A stretch of DNA of 60,472 bases, from assembly GCA_021813555.1 (NCBI GenBank), contig JAKAKG010000222.1, positions 1-60,472 on the forward strand, read 5' to 3'. Every line of letters starts with the position of its first letter. Positions within the stretch are counted from its first letter, which is position 1. Both the position numbers and the translations under genes were made by a program. This DNA comes from Acidobacteriota bacterium. GTDB lineage: Bacteria; Acidobacteriota; UBA4820; DSQY01. Under the pieces are notes generated by a model that saw only the letters and a list, made by a program, of their open reading frames with translations, had not been told where the DNA came from and did not search any database. Shown here one piece after another: positions 425 through 45,344 of the stretch.

Positions 425-1627
425 TTGGAGAAGCGCAAGCGCACCCTTCTGACCGTGTTTCTTATCGTTTTTATCGACCTCATGGGATTCGGGATCGTCA
501 TCCCGCTCCTTCCCCTTTATGGTGACCGGTACAACCCTTCCCCGGCGGTCTTCGGCCTCCTCATGGCGGCCTACTCGCTTATGCAGTTCATCTTCGCCCC
601 GATTTTGGGGCGCTTCTCGGACGCCGTGGGGCGCAGGCCCATCCTCATCCTGTCCCTGGCGGGGACCGTCATTGGCTATTTTCTCTTCGCCATGCAGGAT
701 TCTCTGTGGCTCCTGTTTCTGGCGAGGGCCGTGAACGGCATTGCCGGAGCCAACGTGGCCACGGCGCAGGCGGTCATCGCCGACGTGACGAAGCCCGAAG
801 AGCGGGCCAAGGGCATGGGACTCATCGGCGCGGCCTTCGGGCTGGGCTTCATCTTGGGGCCGGCCATCGGCGGCGCCGCCAACGAGTATTTCGGCGCCCG
901 GGCCCCGGGTTTCTTCGCCGCGGCCCTCTCCGCCGGCGCTCTCCTCATGACCGCCTTCGCCCTGCCCGAAACGTGGCCCGCCGAGCGGCGCGCCCAGGCC
1001 GCTCCCAACCGCGTCCGCCACGGCTGGTTCTCCGTCACCCGGCTCATGGAAGCGCTCCGCCATCCCCAGATCGGGCTCGTGCTCGTGATCTTCTTCCTCA
1101 CCACCTTCGCCTTCGCCAACTTCGAATCCACGTTTGCCCTGTTTCTGAATGAGACGATGCACCTCGACACCGCCCACGTCATGTACTTCTTCGTCTTCGT
1201 CGGCGTGCTGGCGGCGTTCATCCAAGGGGGGCTCATCGGCCGCCTCGTGAAGCGCTTCGGCGAGAGGAATCTCATCCTCACGGGGGCCGTCCTCCTGGTG
1301 CCCGGCTACCTGCTCATCCTCACCGCCACGTCCATAGGGCACCTCATGGCGTTCCTCGTCCTGCTGGCGCTCGGCGCGGGCTTCACGTCGCCGACGCTAT
1401 CGTCGCTCGTGTCGCGGCTGTCCACGGCCGAGGAGCAGGGCGGCATCCTTGGCATTTTTCAGTCCATGGCGTCCTTGGCGCGCATCACGGGGCCCTTCTG
1501 GGGAGTCTTCGCCTTCAAGGAGTTCGGGGTGTCCGTGCCCTACCTCACGGCGGGGTCGGTGTCCACCGTGGTGGTGGTCCTGGCGTGGCTGATGCTCGTC
1601 CGGGCCAGGCGACAGGAACAGCGGTAA
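425..1627 (+). CDS. MFS transporter, TetA-like multidrug efflux
   Basis: Inner-membrane proton antiporter of the major facilitator superfamily, probably exporting drugs or small organic compounds. The 400-residue protein has the expected 12 hydrophobic segments. The first helix carries DLMGFGIVIPLLPLY, and the loop motif GRFSDAVGRRP (about residues 60-70) is the MFS motif A seen in TetA-type exporters. The second half repeats the loop pattern weakly (GRLVKRFGERN). The start is TTG, chosen because the protein then begins directly before helix 1 and lies downstream of a good promoter. It appears monocistronic, and the substrate cannot be told. Confidence 0.85.
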   Translation: MEKRKRTLLTVFLIVFIDLMGFGIVIPLLPLYGDRYNPSPAVFGLLMAAYSLMQFIFAPILGRFSDAVGRRPILILSLAGTVIGYFLFAMQDSLWLLFLARAVNGIAGANVATAQAVIADVTKPEERAKGMGLIGAAFGLGFILGPAIGGAANEYFGARAPGFFAAALSAGALLMTAFALPETWPAERRAQAAPNRVRHGWFSVTRLMEALRHPQIGLVLVIFFLTTFAFANFESTFALFLNETMHLDTAHVMYFFVFVGVLAAFIQGGLIGRLVKRFGERNLILTGAVLLVPGYLLILTATSIGHLMAFLVLLALGAGFTSPTLSSLVSRLSTAEEQGGILGIFQSMASLARITGPFWGVFAFKEFGVSVPYLTAGSVSTVVVVLAWLMLVRARRQEQR

Positions 1628-1639
1628 AGCGGAAGACGG

Positions 1640-1790
1640 GAGACGCCAGACGCGAGACGCGAGACGCAAGACGCGAGACGCAAGACGCTAGACGCGAGAC
1701 CGGAGACGTTGAGGGGACCGGAGGCCATCCCAGCGGCCCCCGGTCCCTTCCTGTTCTGCCTATTGCCTACTGCCTACTGCCTATTCCTCT
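1640..1790. repeat. GAGACGC and TGCCTAC heptamer arrays
   Basis: After the MFS stop codon there are about eight units of GAGACGC/AAGACGC (1640-1700). A pyrimidine-rich array of TGCCTAC/TGCCTAT (about 1756-1790) then runs up to the stop codon of the converging ferritin-like gene. Confidence 0.75.
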
Positions 1791-2290
1791 AAATTAAATT
1801 CCTGAAATTCGTAGAAATAGCCCGTGCGGGTGAGGACGTCCACCTCGGCCTGGACGATGGCCGTGTGCCCGTCCTCGATCTCGAGGAACCGGCCGAACAT
1901 GGCCTTGGCGTCGGGGTCCGACAGGGTTTCCACGAGCCCTTTGTAGTAGGTGCTCACCTCTTCTTCGAGCTTGAGGGCCGTGAAGAGGCGCTTGTAGTCG
2001 TCGCTGTAGTCCCGCTTCTCCTGGGAGGCCTTGATCATCTCCAGCCCCTTCTGAAGAAAATCGGGGGCGGGAATGACCGTCCCGATGGGATCGGCGGAAA
2101 TTTTCCCCTCGGCGCGCCACTGCTTGAGGCGCGACTCAAGGTAGTCCACGTGGCCCTGTTCTTCCTTGGCCAAAACCTCAAAGAACACTTTGCCCTTGGG
2201 GTCGTCGGACTTGGTCGCGGCCCAGATATAGTGGTCTCGCACCTTGTTTTCGTAGTGCAGGGCTGTGACGATGGCTTCATCAACGGTCAT
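1781..2290 (-). CDS. Ferritin-like diiron protein, rubrerythrin-type
   Basis: A 169-residue four-helix ferritin-like protein, probably binding two irons and acting in peroxide or iron handling in the cytoplasm. Metal-ligand motifs are visible: E in HYENKVRD (about residue 14), EEQGH (about 43-47), EEEVSTYY (about 112) and EDGH (about 138-141). This pairing of two Glu-helix and two E..H motifs is the rubrerythrin pattern. The C-terminal rubredoxin domain with CxxC pairs is absent, so it is an erythrin-only form. Start ATG is preceded by GGAAAAGGGGAAAA. The SDR gene upstream ends 22 bases before it on the same strand, so the two may be cotranscribed. Confidence 0.8.
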   Translation of the reverse strand: MTVDEAIVTALHYENKVRDHYIWAATKSDDPKGKVFFEVLAKEEQGHVDYLESRLKQWRAEGKISADPIGTVIPAPDFLQKGLEMIKASQEKRDYSDDYKRLFTALKLEEEVSTYYKGLVETLSDPDAKAMFGRFLEIEDGHTAIVQAEVDVLTRTGYFYEFQEFNLEE

Positions 2291-2312
2291 GGTTTTCCCC
2301 TTTTCCTGCGAG

Positions 2313-3041
2313 TCAGGCCTTACCGGCGGGGCCGAAGGGGTCCCGCGAGGGCATGAGGTGGATCTCGTCCACGTTGGCTTCCGCCGGCTGGGAGAGGGCG
2401 TAGGACACGGCCTCGGCCACGGTTTGGGCAGCCATCATTGATTCCCTGGGAAGTTTGCCGCCGAAGGTGTTCCACGCCGGGGTGAGGGTCGCCCCGGGGA
2501 GGATGGCCGTGACCTTGACGCCTTTCGGAGCCGCCTCCAGACGCAGGGCCGCCAGGAAGCCCATGAGGCCCCACTTGCTGGCGCAGTAGGCGGTTTCCTG
2601 GGGGAACCCGATTTTGCCTGCGATGGAGGACAGGGCGATGACGTGGCCCGCGCCCTGCTTGTAGAAGTGGGGCAGAAGGTACTTGATCAAGAAGTAGGTG
2701 GACGTGAGGTTCGTGTCCAGGACCTGCCGCCACTCCTCCGTGGGGGTGGCCTCCAGCCGGTTCATGCGGAACACGCCGGCGCTGTGCACCACCGCGTTCA
2801 CGGCCCCGAAGGTCTTGAGGGACTCGGCCACGATGGCCCGGACGTCTTCCTCGACGGTCATGTCTCCGGGGATCGCCACCACCCGCTGTCCCCTGCTGGC
2901 CATCTCCCGGGCCGCCGCTTCGATCTTCTTGCGGTTCCGTCCCGTGAGCACGACCGTGTGATGCTCCCGTGCGAGTTGATCGGCCACGGCCTCGCCGATG
3001 CCCGAACTCGCCCCCGTCACCAGGATGATCTTCTTGTCCAT
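2313..3041 (-). CDS. Short-chain dehydrogenase/reductase
   Basis: A 242-residue classical SDR with a Rossmann fold binding NAD(P)H. The glycine motif TGASSGIG is at residues 9-16, the NAG-like motif appears as VHSAG (about 87-91), the catalytic Ser is in ALSSIAGK, and the YxxxK motif is YCASK (about 152-156). The basic residues TGRNRKK after beta-2 suggest a preference for NADPH. It belongs to the YdfG/serine dehydrogenase-like group by length, and the substrate is not predictable. It lies directly upstream of the ferritin-like gene. Confidence 0.85.
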   Translation of the reverse strand: MDKKIILVTGASSGIGEAVADQLAREHHTVVLTGRNRKKIEAAAREMASRGQRVVAIPGDMTVEEDVRAIVAESLKTFGAVNAVVHSAGVFRMNRLEATPTEEWRQVLDTNLTSTYFLIKYLLPHFYKQGAGHVIALSSIAGKIGFPQETAYCASKWGLMGFLAALRLEAAPKGVKVTAILPGATLTPAWNTFGGKLPRESMMAAQTVAEAVSYALSQPAEANVDEIHLMPSRDPFGPAGKA

Positions 3042-3092
3042 GAACGCTCCAGAACCAGCTGTAAGTATAAACGAAGGGCCGAACGAGGGGAA

Positions 3093-39944: not shown

Positions 39945-40667
39945 TCATCCCTTCAAACCCATGCCGTAATAGAGGGGCAGCCTAACCCGGCGCAGGCCGG
40001 AGAGGATGGCCGCGCGCTCAGCGGCCGCCATGGAGAGGGCCTTTTCGGAGCCGAGCCTGCCTTGGTTCCGGAGGAACGCTACCTCATGCTCGGCCTCGGC
40101 GGGGTCCGTGATGGTGGTCCACTCATGGGAAGCGGCGCGGATGGTGGGGCGAAAGCCGGCCCGTCTCAGTCCCTCTTCCAGCCAAGGGCCCACGTCAAGA
40201 TGGCCTCCTGAGAAGTGCACGGCCCCGGCGATGGCCTTCCCCATACCCGTGTTGGGCTCGTCCACCCGGGCGGACAGGTCGGGCTCGGCCAGGATCATGG
40301 CTACGCCTTGGGGCTTCAAAACCCGCCTCGCTTCGCGCAAGGCCGCGAGAGGATCGGGAAGCCACAGGAGGAGGAAGTGGAAGGCCACGGCGTCGAGGGA
40401 ACCATCGGGGAAGGGCAGGGCGCAGGCGTCCCCAGCCACGGTTCGGACGTTCTCCGGTGGGGGGCTTCCTGGAGCCAAATCGAGCCCGTAGACGGGGCGC
40501 CCTGTTCGTGAGGCCATTTCGGCGGCCACGAGGCCCTCGCCCGAGCCCACATCCAGCACCTTCTCCCGCGTGGAGAGCCTCGCCATGCGGTACACGGCCG
40601 CGCGGATAGGCCGCGTCCGTTCAAACTGGAACCTGGAGGGGAACGCGTGGCCACCGTGTGCGGCGAT
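39945..40667 (-). CDS. Class I SAM-dependent methyltransferase
   Basis: A 240-residue methyltransferase with motif I KVLDVGSGEGLVAAEM, the acidic residue in VYGLDLAPG, and DACALPFPDGSLDAVAFHFLLLWLPD as motifs II-III, typical of the UbiE/type 11 group. Its position 6 bases after the radical SAM gene suggests it works in the same modification pathway. The start is uncertain: homologous sequence extends upstream of the first ATG (40586), and the only codon with a spaced GGAGG is ATC at 40667, a rare non-standard start. A GTG further upstream, inside the radical SAM gene, is the alternative. Confidence 0.75.
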   Translation of the reverse strand: MAAHGGHAFPSRFQFERTRPIRAAVYRMARLSTREKVLDVGSGEGLVAAEMASRTGRPVYGLDLAPGSPPPENVRTVAGDACALPFPDGSLDAVAFHFLLLWLPDPLAALREARRVLKPQGVAMILAEPDLSARVDEPNTGMGKAIAGAVHFSGGHLDVGPWLEEGLRRAGFRPTIRAASHEWTTITDPAEAEHEVAFLRNQGRLGSEKALSMAAAERAAILSGLRRVRLPLYYGMGLKG

Positions 40668-40672
40668 GGCGG

Positions 40673-42022
40673 CTAACCTCCGCTGGCCACTTCGCGGCAG
40701 AAGAGCTTCTGGTGCTCCGCCTCGATGGGACAGCCTCCCCCGCAGAGGGCCAGATGCTCGCAGGCCTCGCACTCGTTGAGGGGCTTTTGCGGCTTTCGGA
40801 GCCGTTGGCAAAGGGGGTGGTTCCAGATGGCGTCCCAGGGATCGCGCAGGATGTTGCCCACGCCCTCGTAGTAGGACTGGCAGGGGATCACCGTTCCGTC
40901 GGGCTCCACGGCCATGCTCAGGCGCGCCGCCGTGCACTGCTTCACGCCCACACCCATCTCCACGGGATTCAGCTCGCAGTATCGCGTGGGGGTATACCAC
41001 ACGAGACGAACGCCCTTCTCGCGGGCGCGGGCGGCGAGGCGCTCCAGGATCGGAATGACCTCCCGTGCAGTAAGCTCGGTGCCGCTGGCCTTGCCCTGGC
41101 CCGAGTAGATCATGCCGTTCACCGCGAAGGAGGGGAGGCCCTCCTGGGCTACCAGGTCCACGAGGGCTTCGATGCCATACGCGTTGAGCTGGGTGAGGGT
41201 CGTGTTGGTGAGGGTGTAGATTCCCGCGGCCTTGGCCGCCCGAAGGCCGGCGAGGGTCTCATCGAAGGAGTCGGCCCGGGTCATGACGTTGTGAATGGAA
41301 GGGTCCGCCGACTCCAGGGTGATCTGCACGTGGTCGAGTCCCGCTTCTCGAAGCCTCGCGGCGAACGCGGGGTCGCCCAGGCGGCGCCCGTTGGTGTTCA
41401 GGCCGGTCACGAGGCCCAGCTCCTCGGCATAGGCTATCAGGTCGGGCAGGTCCTCGCGCAGGGTCGGTTCCCCTCCCGTAAAGACCACGTGGGGAATTCC
41501 CGCCTTCTCGCACGCGTCCAGGACCTTGCGCCAGGAGGACGTGTCCATCTCCTCCACGTCCCGTCCCGGCTCGTTGTAGCAGTGCGCGCAGCGGTTCTGG
41601 CACCGGTAGGTGAGGGCCAGATCCATGCGCATGGGCGCCGTGAGGTCGGGGGAGTAGGGTTCGATGAGGTCCACCCCCAGGTCCGTCAGCGGACAGACCT
41701 GGTCCGTGGCGGAGAGGACTTTCACCGTATCGAAAATCCGGTGAATATCATCATGGAGCTGGCCGCGGGTCACGCCGCGGTAGCGCCTGAGCATGGCCTC
41801 CATGGCGCCCTCCTCGCCAAGGCCGTCCAGGAGGTGCTTGACCATCTCCGCGGCCGTGGCGTTGAGGTGGAGGATGCGGCTCGCGTCCAGGGTCACTACG
41901 GCGCCGTGGTCCGGGTTGACTCGCATGTGCACGCGGTGCGTGGCGCCGTCCACCTCCACCGTGCCCGAGTAGAGCCCCGGATCGACGGGCTTCGCTCTCT
42001 TGAACCAATCTTTGATCTTCAT
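40673..42022 (-). CDS. Radical SAM/SPASM maturase with N-terminal PqqD-like domain
   Basis: A 449-residue enzyme of the peptide-modifying radical SAM class. Residues about 35-105 resemble PqqD/RRE, the peptide recognition element (ILHLNATAAEMVKHLLDG). The radical SAM cluster is C141-x3-C145-x2-C148 (CQNRCAHC), followed by FTGGEPTLREDL. The C-terminal SPASM region has QCTAARLSMAVEPDGTVIPCQ and CEACEHLALCGGGC plus a last Cys, giving ligands for auxiliary 4Fe-4S clusters. Fused RRE and SPASM point to a RiPP-like maturase. The gene starts 16 bases after a protein with a Cys-Ala repeat tail, its likely substrate. Confidence 0.85.
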   Translation of the reverse strand: MKIKDWFKRAKPVDPGLYSGTVEVDGATHRVHMRVNPDHGAVVTLDASRILHLNATAAEMVKHLLDGLGEEGAMEAMLRRYRGVTRGQLHDDIHRIFDTVKVLSATDQVCPLTDLGVDLIEPYSPDLTAPMRMDLALTYRCQNRCAHCYNEPGRDVEEMDTSSWRKVLDACEKAGIPHVVFTGGEPTLREDLPDLIAYAEELGLVTGLNTNGRRLGDPAFAARLREAGLDHVQITLESADPSIHNVMTRADSFDETLAGLRAAKAAGIYTLTNTTLTQLNAYGIEALVDLVAQEGLPSFAVNGMIYSGQGKASGTELTAREVIPILERLAARAREKGVRLVWYTPTRYCELNPVEMGVGVKQCTAARLSMAVEPDGTVIPCQSYYEGVGNILRDPWDAIWNHPLCQRLRKPQKPLNECEACEHLALCGGGCPIEAEHQKLFCREVASGG

Positions 42023-42038: not shown

Positions 42039-43592
42039 TCATCTTCCCCCTCCCGCGCAGGCGCAGGCGCACCCGGCGCAGGCGCACGCGCAGGCGCATC
42101 CGCCGCCCGAGTGGCCGCCACCCGAAGTGACGGGCATGGGGTTGGTCTTCTGTGTGACGGCCGTGGAAAGGCCCGGCACGGAGTTCACCAGATCGTGGCC
42201 GAAGCTCTCGATGCTTGAGACCACGGTGTTGGCCGCAGCCACGGGGCTTGGGATGGAGCTTCCGCCCGGCGCGGGCAGGCCGGCGCCGGTGGTCCCGGCA
42301 TGAGAGGACCCGTAAAGCGCTCCCCACCACACGGGCAGCGGCATGGGGCGCGTCCCGAACCGCTCCGTGGCCGTCTGGCCGAAGTCCTTGTCCAAAAGGA
42401 GCCATTCAAAGGCCTGGGAGTAATCCTCCTGGCCCGCCTGGTCCCATGCCTTGCGCATGATGTCCTGGTAGTAGAGGAGGGATTTCTTGCGGCTGAATCC
42501 CTTCATTTTTTCCTGGACGCGCTGGACGAGGTCGGTGATGACGCGCGCTGCTTCCCCCTGGCTTATTTTTCCGTCGTCCTGCACCGCCTTGGCGAACTCC
42601 TGCTCGTAGGAGAAGGCAGGCTCCTGCCCCGGCAGAAGCGCCAGCGTGAGAGGACTGCGGGAGAGAACCTTTACCAGGCCCTTGCGCAGCATGCCGAAGA
42701 GGAGGAGAGCCATGACCTTGTCCACGGGCTGCTGCATGAGGACGGCCACTTCGGGGACCGTGAGGCCGCGCCGGACCTCGGTGCCCTCCATGCCCACGGA
42801 GGGCGGGAGGTACTGCATCCTCCTCCTGCGATTCTGGACGATGCCAACTACGAACAAGCCTACGAAGAGGAAGGGACACACGCACGTGAGCGACCCTCCC
42901 AGAAGGCTCGCCACGGCGTCGCCCATGCGCGTGCTCAGGGGCGGCCCCGCGGGCTTCTCCGCGACTCGCTGCATGACGCGGGCGGGGAAGGAGGCGCCGA
43001 AGGTATAGGCCCGGGACGGCGAAGCCTGCGGAATATCCCAGACGTAGTGGACGCGCCCGTCCTCCACCCGCGACGAGGTGAACTGGAGCCCGTGGTAGCG
43101 CGGCTCGTCCGGCCCCACTCCCTCGGGCAGGACGAACTCGCACACGAGGTGGGTGGTGCCGCTCGTGTACTCGGCCCCGTACCACGTGGGGCTGAACACG
43201 AGGCTTGCGTAGCTCTTGTCCTCGTCGTCGGGGAAGACGCGGTCCTTCAGGAGGGCCGTCAGGTGCAACGTGCCGCTCCGGCCCGCGGGAATCGCCCGGT
43301 CCCCCAAGTGCACTTCCACGCCGTGGGCCACGGCCGTCGAGGGGCGTATGTCGCTCATGGGCGTTCCGTCCAGGTCCGCCTTGACGTCGCTGTAGCCGTC
43401 GTCGGGGAGGCCCACGTCGATGACGTCGATGGGCTGGCCTTCGTTGGCGAAGGTGATGGCGTAGCTCACCCACACCGAAGCGTCCCGGTTCACCGCCACG
43501 GTGCACCGGTTCTCCGGAACCTGAAACTTGTAGTCCGCGAATGTGCCCAACGCCGCGCAGAGGGCGAGGCACGCGATGATGAGCTTCTTCAT
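42039..43592 (-). CDS. Membrane protein (DUF2207-like) with Cys-Ala repeat tail
   Basis: A 517-residue protein. A signal peptide (1-19) and an outward-facing beta-rich domain (20-225, DUF2207-like) lead to one membrane helix (about 229-252) and an RRRR stop. The inward-facing part has a winged-helix-like segment (GLTVPEVAVLMQQPVDKVMALLLFGMLRKG, 277-305), a helical region and a Gly/Pro-rich linker. The last 27 residues are Gly-rich with seven Cys at 499, 501, 503, 505, 508, 510 and 512, mostly alternating with Ala (ending CACACACAGCACACAGGGR). The tail is predicted cytoplasmic, where the radical SAM enzyme could act. Function is unknown. Confidence 0.75.
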   Translation of the reverse strand: MKKLIIACLALCAALGTFADYKFQVPENRCTVAVNRDASVWVSYAITFANEGQPIDVIDVGLPDDGYSDVKADLDGTPMSDIRPSTAVAHGVEVHLGDRAIPAGRSGTLHLTALLKDRVFPDDEDKSYASLVFSPTWYGAEYTSGTTHLVCEFVLPEGVGPDEPRYHGLQFTSSRVEDGRVHYVWDIPQASPSRAYTFGASFPARVMQRVAEKPAGPPLSTRMGDAVASLLGGSLTCVCPFLFVGLFVVGIVQNRRRRMQYLPPSVGMEGTEVRRGLTVPEVAVLMQQPVDKVMALLLFGMLRKGLVKVLSRSPLTLALLPGQEPAFSYEQEFAKAVQDDGKISQGEAARVITDLVQRVQEKMKGFSRKKSLLYYQDIMRKAWDQAGQEDYSQAFEWLLLDKDFGQTATERFGTRPMPLPVWWGALYGSSHAGTTGAGLPAPGGSSIPSPVAAANTVVSSIESFGHDLVNSVPGLSTAVTQKTNPMPVTSGGGHSGGGCACACACAGCACACAGGGR

Positions 43593-43755: not shown

Positions 43756-44139
43756 TCACCACTTGGGCTCTTCCTGGATGAGGAATGTTCCCTTGCAATA
43801 GCCGCACGTCACCGTGAGGGTCCCCTCGGGGTTGAGGGTCGCCGTGGAAGCGTCGACCTGTCCGCCGCAGTGAGGGCAGACAATGGGCTTCAGGCTGAGT
43901 TGTCCCGGAGGCTCCTGGCCGCCCGGTCCCGCCGGGGTCCCCTCCTTGAGCGAGGTCCCTCCCTTGGGCCGCCAGGCGAGCACCACCAGCACGAAACCCG
44001 CGAGGATCAGCAGGCCTCCCACCACAAGCCGCGGCAGGACCTTGTGCTGGGCCACCGCGTCGGGGTGGGCGGCGGCCAGCACGAAGATCCCCCCCAGCAG
44101 CCAGAGGAACGCGGAGACGAGAGTCGCCATGATTTTCAT
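43756..44139 (-). CDS. Two-helix membrane protein with C-terminal zinc ribbon
   Basis: A 127-residue protein with membrane helices at about 5-24 and 36-56, a Gly/Pro linker and a zinc ribbon: IVCPHCGGQVDAS...VTCGYCKGTF (CPHC near 88, CGYC near 112). The ribbon should be cytoplasmic. It follows the larger zinc-ribbon protein by 14 bases and probably works with it. No function is known to me. Confidence 0.65.
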   Translation of the reverse strand: MKIMATLVSAFLWLLGGIFVLAAAHPDAVAQHKVLPRLVVGGLLILAGFVLVVLAWRPKGGTSLKEGTPAGPGGQEPPGQLSLKPIVCPHCGGQVDASTATLNPEGTLTVTCGYCKGTFLIQEEPKW

Positions 44140-44153
44140 GCACGAACCCCGCG

Positions 44154-45344
44154 CTACTGATAGCGCTTTACGTCCATCTTCCAGTTGGATTTGAGCTCGA
44201 TGCGGAAGACGGGGTGGGATCCCGCGTCGAAGGTGTAGTCCCACTCGCCCGCCACGGGTTCCTGGGGAGGACGCCAGACCGCCACCCGGATGTGATGCTG
44301 CCCGGCGGCAACGGTCAGCTCCTTGGTGATGCGCTGCTTGGCCGACGTCGCCACCAGGTCCTGATCGTAGACTTTGGCGCCATCCACTTTCACGACGAGC
44401 TTGGTGCCGGGGGCCTCCGATTCGAGGATGAGGCCCAGCACTGCTTTGGCCTGGACGGGCGCGGGTGCTGCTTCTAGGGGAGCCGGGCCGGAGGAGGGGG
44501 CCGGCGGCTGACCCGCCGCGGCTTCGGCGGGCGGCTCGGGCTGCGGAGGCGTGGAGGAGGCCGTCGACGGCGCACGCTTCGTAGGCCGGGAAGGCGTTGG
44601 CGGCGGCGCCGGGGTCTCCGAGGGCGCCGCCGCGGATGGGGCAGCCTCCTGGGGCGCCGGGGTTGCCGGTGCTTCCGTGGGCGTGGCGGACTCGGAACTC
44701 GGCGGCGCGACAGGCTCGGGCTGGGTCTCGGCCGGAGTCTGGCTTTGCGCCTGCTGGGCCTGATCCTGCGCCTGCTGCGTCGCCTGAGCGAGCTGGTCCA
44801 AGGCCTTGGCTTTCGTCCTCTTCCACCAGACGTACCCGCCAGCACCTAGACCGGCCAGGACGACGAGGCCCACCAAGGCGGCGATGATGATGATCACCAT
44901 AGTGGATGACTTCTTTTTCGGGGGGCTGCCCGCGCCCGCCACCGGGGCCGCCTTGGGAGGAGCCGTCGGTTTGGCCGCCGCGGGAGGAGGCGGCGGCGGG
45001 GCAGCTTTGGCGGCCGCCACCGGAGCCGGGGGTGTCGCCACGGGAGCCGGGGGTGCCGCGGGCGGCGGCGGGGGCGGCGCGGGAGCCTGAGCGGCCTTCG
45101 GCGGCGCTGGAGGGGTCAGGGGCTTGGCGATCTTGGCTCCGCAGAAGCCGCAGAAGGTCGCGCCTGGCTTGGTCAAGGGCTTGCCGCACGTGGGGCAGGC
45201 CGGCGCACCCGCTGGCGCGGCGCTCAGATCCGTCGTCATGGTGGTCTCGGCGGGGTTCGGCGAGACATCCCGCTTGGCTCCGCAGACGCCGCAAAATTTC
45301 GCTTCATCCTTGAGCGTGGTGCCGCAATTCGCGCAGACCGCCAT
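44154..45344 (-). CDS. Double zinc-ribbon, proline-rich single-pass membrane protein
   Basis: A 396-residue protein. Two N-terminal zinc ribbons (CANCGTTLKDEAKFCGVCG at 4-22 and CPTCGKPLTKPGATFCGFCG at about 50-69) are followed by a Pro/Ala-rich linker. A membrane helix (about 149-171, IIIIAALVGLVVLAGLGAGGYVWW) comes next, then a second Pro-rich stretch, and finally a folded domain (about 295-396) of beta character. The layout resembles zinc-ribbon membrane proteins of unknown role, perhaps sensing or scaffolding. A promoter is seen about 110 bases upstream. Confidence 0.7.
   Translation of the reverse strand: MAVCANCGTTLKDEAKFCGVCGAKRDVSPNPAETTMTTDLSAAPAGAPACPTCGKPLTKPGATFCGFCGAKIAKPLTPPAPPKAAQAPAPPPPPPAAPPAPVATPPAPVAAAKAAPPPPPPAAAKPTAPPKAAPVAGAGSPPKKKSSTMVIIIIAALVGLVVLAGLGAGGYVWWKRTKAKALDQLAQATQQAQDQAQQAQSQTPAETQPEPVAPPSSESATPTEAPATPAPQEAAPSAAAPSETPAPPPTPSRPTKRAPSTASSTPPQPEPPAEAAAGQPPAPSSGPAPLEAAPAPVQAKAVLGLILESEAPGTKLVVKVDGAKVYDQDLVATSAKQRITKELTVAAGQHHIRVAVWRPPQEPVAGEWDYTFDAGSHPVFRIELKSNWKMDVKRYQ

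Follow-up and report, generated by a model that had tools for sequence, protein, structure and literature searches.

Does the cysteine-rich C terminus of a membrane protein serve as the substrate of the radical SAM enzyme encoded next to it? The question is raised by two adjoining genes in the window, by which we mean the whole 60,472-nucleotide stretch of Acidobacteriota DNA that was analysed. An earlier note on this DNA had proposed that the seven-Cys tail of a 517-residue protein is modified by an enzyme encoded sixteen bases on, perhaps with a thioether formed on each Cys. Both genes were found as described. They are open reading frames on the minus strand, 43592–42039 for the tail protein, which starts with ATG, and 42022–40673 for the enzyme, whose ATG at 42022 lies 16 bases past the tail-gene stop. 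The membrane protein ends in SGGGHSGGGCACACACAGCACACAGGGR followed by the stop codon, and residues 499–517 (42042–42098, minus strand) make up the tail CACACACAGCACACAGGGR, which contains seven Cys and is identical at all 41 loci compared.

The architecture of the tail protein was examined by hydropathy and AF2 modelling (mean pLDDT 77.5). An N-terminal hydrophobic helix or signal is followed by an extracytoplasmic beta domain (residues 23–203), a transmembrane helix at about 234–258, modelled as 239–258, and a winged-helix-like and helical domain that spans 279–412 in the model, the second limit being approximate. A conserved helix (450–487) ending in TNPMP, modelled as helical over 450–483, then leads into a Gly-rich spacer and the Cys-Ala tail, which is disordered in the model. 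Residues T480, N484 and P485 are invariant in an alignment of 28 members and lie just before the spacer; this TNPxP segment is a candidate recognition element. Hydropathy gave one inner transmembrane candidate in 28 of the 41 members and two in the other 13. Usually the second candidate is a helix near residue 300 that the AF2 model assigns to the winged-helix part; a few members have instead a stretch adjoining the main helix. Net charge flanking the strongest transmembrane candidate comes to about +3.0 on its C side and -0.2 on its N side. Because the C side is the more positive, the tail is predicted to be cytoplasmic, in the same compartment as the enzyme. All 41 tails terminate proteins of 510–585 residues with a transmembrane helix, so at the level of sequence the earlier suggestion of a large membrane protein as the target held across the set, with the tail predicted to lie inside.

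Description of the protein as DUF2207-like drew support from relatives and not from the window protein, which has no match to any Pfam or NCBIfam model. DUF2207_C (PF20990) matches weakly in four of 28 close relatives (best 0.001), TIGR04222 matches in two of 28 members (best E 0.007), and the PF09972 (DUF2207) cut-off of 24.4 bits is passed by two of the distant tail proteins scanned, both of the CHSA type described below (25.6 and 25.5 bits). An N-terminal extracytoplasmic domain, a transmembrane helix and a winged-helix-like cytoplasmic part are shared with the DUF2207/YciQ family, whereas the window protein falls below Pfam detection and only its CHSA-type relatives pass PF09972. We know of no report of ordinary DUF2207 proteins with such tails or enzymes. 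A PDB sequence search returned no convincing relative of the membrane protein. Foldseek comparison of the 517-residue model with the PDB gave only partial matches, with E of about 1e-8 and low TM-scores, to the beta domains of M1 aminopeptidases and of ribophorin I; the resemblance probably runs through the beta domain (residues 23–203) and is uninformative on function.

The enzyme (449 residues, 40673–42022, minus strand) was analysed with Pfam, AF2 and Foldseek. As had been claimed, it combines PqqD-like, radical SAM and SPASM domains, all three above the Pfam cut-offs (Radical_SAM 5.4e-29, SPASM 3.1e-10, PqqD 3.5e-5; for PF05402, 24.5 bits against a cut-off of 23.4). The RRE, or PqqD-like domain, occupies residues 16–105 (41708–41977, minus strand) with the order beta-beta-beta-alpha-alpha-alpha. 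The radical SAM motif CQNRCAHC (C141, C145 and C148; 41579–41602, minus strand) is invariant in 29 members, and so are the SPASM cysteines C349, C363, C381, C418, C421, C427 and C431 (40730–40978, minus strand) and the linker cysteine C110. The claim of a full set of SPASM cysteines therefore stands for these seven; in the 29-member alignment it is chiefly the Acidobacteriota sequences that have an eighth Cys, close to the C terminus. The AF2 model (pTM 0.81) shows the RRE strands and three helices arranged as in PqqD, then the barrel, then the SPASM domain. The nearest solved folds found by Foldseek are SkfB, SuiB, CteB and anSME, and the closest PDB sequences are SkfB and PqqE. With the window enzyme, none of the 25 NCBIfam radical SAM models listed reached its curated cut-off. 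The best score for a named maturase family (PqqE, NirJ2, GeoRSP, ACGX, SkfB, StsB and others) was 136 bits against a cut-off of 500. The ACGX system (TIGR04340), which also has a radical SAM/SPASM enzyme and whose targets are Cys/Ala/Gly repeats, gave 88 of the 400 bits that its model requires.

To find further tails, a degenerate DNA pattern was run against 396 Acidobacteriota and 301 Chloroflexota genomes (697 in all), with the reversed pattern as a control. The tail pattern was present in 19 of the Acidobacteriota and 17 of the Chloroflexota genomes, with one match per genome, and the control gave zero matches in the same genomes. A scan of species genomes yielded relatives of the membrane protein from both phyla with 31–98% identity, and every one had the same final 19 residues, with one extra CA in a single protein (L006). 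Between the phyla the protein bodies are only 31–40% identical, whereas the tail does not vary at any position, its closing GGGR included. At 40 loci this one peptide is encoded by 39 distinct DNA sequences, in which both AGR and CGN codons are used for the final Arg, indicating that selection acts on the peptide. The source genome has a single such tail, a second tail-like motif being a spurious 31-residue frame. Spread by viruses or plasmids was also considered and rejected: the tail pattern was absent from viral contigs, and plasmids gave no enzyme match at E 1e-40.

The enzyme gene lies directly downstream of the tail gene at all 41 loci, which come from 40 genomes (L005 and L084 are the same). 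The gap between the two genes has a median of 34 bases and is within 60 bases at 31 loci; the genes overlap at nine. At one locus (L079) the contig holds just the first 152 enzyme residues. Unusually long gaps occur at L076 (797 bases) and L101 (567 bases). At L073, in genome G030, the tail gene is intact but the reading frame of the enzyme breaks off some 300 residues in, by sequencing error or decay.

The reverse search used an enzyme profile (A2) with homologues at E<=1e-75 considered. It found 31 of 396 Acidobacteriota genomes, 18 with the exact tail and 13 with other Cys-repeat tails, and 22 of 301 Chloroflexota genomes, 17 with the exact tail, three with the six-Cys tail CACACAGCACACAGGGR, a single one with CHSA repeats, and G499. 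The last has a dead paralogue alone, so that 21 of 301 Chloroflexota genomes have an enzyme with catalytic residues, every one together with a tail. Thus all catalytic homologues, in 31 Acidobacteriota and 21 Chloroflexota genomes, are accompanied by a Cys-repeat tail in the genome, nearly always adjacent. Counted against the tail as substrate were the broken enzyme frame of G030 and two genomes (G102 and G247) in which a CHSA gene and the enzyme are on separate contigs. A profile of the membrane protein (A1) found 30 of 396 Acidobacteriota genomes, nearly the same list as the enzyme profile. Fisher's test gave p < 1e-30 in each phylum, with genomes that are not independent and a Chloroflexota table that counted 22 genomes rather than 21, a difference too small to alter the outcome. 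Because of this non-independence, the distribution is a better argument than the p value: the system is patchy over about a dozen Acidobacteriota families, and tail and enzyme are both absent from near relatives such as G018.

The variant tails have 3+4 or 3+3 Cys, the form CACACVSCACACACAGGGG, or CHSA repeats. The tail of G026, GGGCACACAGCACACACAGGGR, has 3+4 Cys where the usual arrangement is 4+3, and in G060 and G035 the tail CACACVSCACACACAGGGGAGC is carried by a short protein of 312–320 residues without the winged-helix part. CHSA-repeat tails occur in ten Acidobacteriota and two Chloroflexota genomes, on proteins of about 500–580 residues that end in Acidobacteriota mostly with CHSACVSGGAH. 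Over their winged-helix part these proteins show a weak but significant match to the window family. Loci of this type in both phyla have their own radical SAM enzyme (L114, positions 1567–3069; L116, L118–L122, L127, L134 and L136). On the enzyme tree the CHSA type forms one clade and the CACACVS type another, each with 100/100 support, and the tail groups require seven changes against 40.8 with shuffled labels; the placement of the G026 enzyme, on a long branch, is unsure. Tail types thus track enzyme clades, and enzyme and tail have diverged in step.

Other conserved neighbours were a zinc-ribbon protein, a pseudo-radical-SAM protein and a methyltransferase. Directly upstream of the tail gene lies a gene for a small zinc-ribbon membrane protein (127 residues and 43756–44139, minus strand, in the window) with CxxCG and CxxC motifs and a C terminus ending in EEPKW. 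Such a protein, of 107–133 residues, is encoded upstream at 38 of 41 loci; of the three without it, two represent one and the same end of a contig. Across the two phyla CxxCG, CxxC and the C-terminal PKW are invariant in 24 of these proteins, whose matches to zinc-ribbon models are weak. The zinc-ribbon gene stop overlaps the tail-gene start at nine loci, by seven bases at eight of them. A methyltransferase had been reported to follow the enzyme in the window, and it does: a class I SAM-dependent methyltransferase (Methyltransf_11, 4.8e-19) is encoded at about 39945–40595 on the minus strand, with an uncertain start codon. Methyltransferases of one family follow in most Chloroflexota loci and in a minority of those from Acidobacteriota. 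The pseudo-radical-SAM protein follows at 20 of the 21 Chloroflexota loci in the set of 41 (for example L006, 9051–10217); it has kept the RRE, has lost CxxxCxxC and the SPASM cysteines, and is truncated at the C terminus. Neither the methyltransferase nor the pseudo-enzyme is universal across loci, which also counts against the explanation given below.

The enzyme thus carries the broad features of RRE-radical SAM-SPASM maturases: a PqqD-like RRE, CxxxCxxC with SPASM cysteines, and a gene-linked, co-inherited candidate substrate. The earlier note had asked for the co-occurrence of tail and enzyme to be examined in relatives, and over the 697 genomes it proved close to perfect in both directions, which strongly supports the tail as substrate. 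Given gene linkage, invariance and two-way co-occurrence, the adjoining enzyme very probably has the tail as its dedicated substrate.

The system would then be a dedicated post-translational modification system with a single protein substrate. The DUF2207-like protein would span the membrane, exposing the beta domain on the outer side and keeping both the winged-helix part and the flexible tail in the cytoplasm. A cytoplasmic enzyme would recognise it, probably through the RRE and the TNPxP/Gly-rich segment, and then modify CACACACAGCACACAGGGR. The pseudo-enzyme is probably a substrate-handling partner, and in most Chloroflexota this catalytically dead RRE-radical-SAM protein probably helps to present the substrate; the methyltransferase may contribute a further step, and the zinc-ribbon membrane protein would be a partner in the system. 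The modified tail might be retained on the membrane, with metal handling, redox activity or a structural cap as candidate roles. A metal-thiolate role of the tail, before or after modification, is possible. More tentatively, and with somewhat less than even confidence, we propose a widespread class of membrane proteins whose fixed Cys-repeat tails (the CA ladder and CHSA) would become a permanent polycyclic thioether or a metal or redox cofactor at the cytoplasmic face of the membrane, protein-bound and ribosomally encoded rather than released as a RiPP.

As the tail consists only of Cys, Ala and Gly with a final Arg, few other acceptors are available for a modification. Known sactionine bonds reach Ala and Gly, as in ruminococcin C1 (Cys5-Ala12), thuricin CD (Ala25) and streptosactin (Cys31-Gly34, i+3) (PMC8172795), and in the CHSA repeats an Ala lies at i+3 from each Cys. 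These two points lead us to suggest that a hydrogen might be abstracted from the alpha-carbon of Ala or Gly, which a Cys thiol would then capture, giving a thioether ladder or a hairpin around the central Gly. By analogy with these peptides, Cys-to-Ala/Gly thioethers are our leading guess for the tail chemistry, held at just under even confidence. A thioether on each Cys, as originally proposed, is plausible from the enzyme class, in which SkfB, SuiB and CteB are the nearest folds.

Known reactions of radical SAM-SPASM enzymes also include epimerisation, oxidation and the making of C-C or ether bonds. The tail might be the substrate of a different chemistry, such as formylglycine-like Cys oxidation, Ala/Gly epimerisation, backbone changes, or S- or C-methylation with the methyltransferase; this competes with the thioether chemistry and not with the substrate claim. 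The presence of anSME, which oxidises Cys or Ser, among the nearest folds and of a methyltransferase gene at many loci would fit such a reaction. However, cysteines alternating with Ala and Gly only, together with an RRE-fused enzyme closest to SkfB, resemble thioether maturases most, and many Acidobacteriota have no methyltransferase gene close to that of the enzyme. We regard this as a serious alternative, though one with appreciably less than an even chance.

It is unlikely, in our estimate, that the modified tail is cleaved off as a small peptide (RiPP) and that the membrane protein is an oversized leader. The Gly-rich spacer before the tail does look cleavable and RRE enzymes normally serve RiPPs, but inspection of the locus listings showed no protease or exporter gene that was conspicuously conserved, the protein body is itself conserved, folded and membrane-bound, and the tail is predicted to be on the cytoplasmic side.

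Metal-thiolate proteins typically bear arrays of CxC and CxxC, and the spacing CxCxCxCxxCxCxC could instead form an unmodified, metallothionein-like site of a membrane metal sensor or buffer, with the enzyme acting on another molecule or protein of the pathway. Such a site would also suit the zinc-ribbon partner encoded upstream and the reducing cytoplasm in which the tail is predicted to lie. Yet a metal site should tolerate Ala/Gly changes between the cysteines, and the tail is invariant across phyla, GGGR included. Moreover, the RRE of the enzyme is a peptide-binding domain, the enzyme is co-inherited with the tail, variant tails included, and the locus listings, which covered open reading frames of at least 60 residues, showed no further small precursor peptide next to it. 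We think an unmodified metal site quite improbable, slightly more so than a released peptide. Although the DNA that encodes the tail in the window is repetitive and GC-rich, a chance low-complexity or hexanucleotide (TGCGCC) repeat beside a coincidental neighbour is excluded by codon diversity and conservation, with 39 DNA sequences at 40 loci giving the same 19 residues in two phyla through AGR and CGN Arg codons, no match to the reversed pattern, and near-perfect enzyme linkage in both phyla.

The apparent substrate of the enzyme is a C-terminal sequence, the same in two phyla, on a folded membrane protein, and several enzyme-matched tail types exist. RRE/SPASM radical SAM enzymes are known mainly as makers of small peptides, and the present findings suggest an unstudied system in which the end of a membrane protein is chemically modified instead of a small released peptide. 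If it is modified, the tail would represent a protein-bound structure of a new kind, whose chemistry, with a substrate of 19 fixed residues, can be put to a direct test.

The sactipeptide and ranthipeptide maturases SkfB, CteB and GggB, and SuiB, likewise combine an RRE, a radical SAM domain and SPASM/Twitch, and in the PDB it is SkfB, SuiB and CteB that head the structural matches and rank among the best sequence matches. Their known substrates are small leader-core precursors, whereas the core here is the C terminus of a 510–585-residue membrane protein; the tails examined were on proteins of this size or of 312–320 residues and not on a small precursor with a cleavable leader. Quinohemoprotein amine dehydrogenase offers another likeness, in that the thioether target of QhpD, the gamma subunit QhpC, remains a protein. 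QhpC is a soluble enzyme subunit, and the donor and acceptor residues and gene context of QhpD/QhpC differ from those of the window system.

The statement that no characterised example exists was upheld for this system in the literature searched, in which few subscription journals were covered: neither a description of the tail-enzyme pairing nor a mention of the string CHSACHSAC was found. It was too broad for the general idea, since QhpD is a radical SAM-SPASM enzyme that forms thioethers within a protein subunit (PMC8172795), and membrane proteins of TIGR04222 with Cys-rich tails encoded beside MNIO (DUF692) enzymes have been proposed as MNIO substrates (PMC12452194). The TIGR04222/MNIO pairing is the closest published parallel, with a large membrane protein, an extracytoplasmic domain, an unstructured Gly/Cys tail, a gene-linked RiPP-type enzyme and a proposed protein substrate. 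The present system departs from it in enzyme class (radical SAM-SPASM rather than MNIO), in its fixed tail where the other is variable, in predicted topology (cytoplasmic here, whereas periplasmic tails are predicted there; PMC12452194) and in tightness of linkage, near-perfect here, whereas about a third of the genomes there lack an MNIO (PMC12452194). Taken with the MNIO-linked proteins, the system suggests that two or more unrelated classes of enzyme may have come to modify Cys-rich tails on DUF2207-like membrane proteins. In Streptococcus mutans, a protein of the DUF2207 family has an effect on stress tolerance and on biofilm (PMC10457818), by analogy a weak pointer to the cellular role of the tail protein.

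Some further genes were seen at or near these loci. At L110 (4958–6232) a second RRE-radical-SAM-like protein has lost the CxxxCxxC motif, and the pseudo-enzyme of G499 (L135, 2598–3743) has neither a tail nor an active enzyme nearby. In the window itself, just upstream of the cassette, positions 44154–45344 encode a 396-residue protein with two zinc ribbons, a transmembrane helix and a long Pro/Ala-rich stretch.
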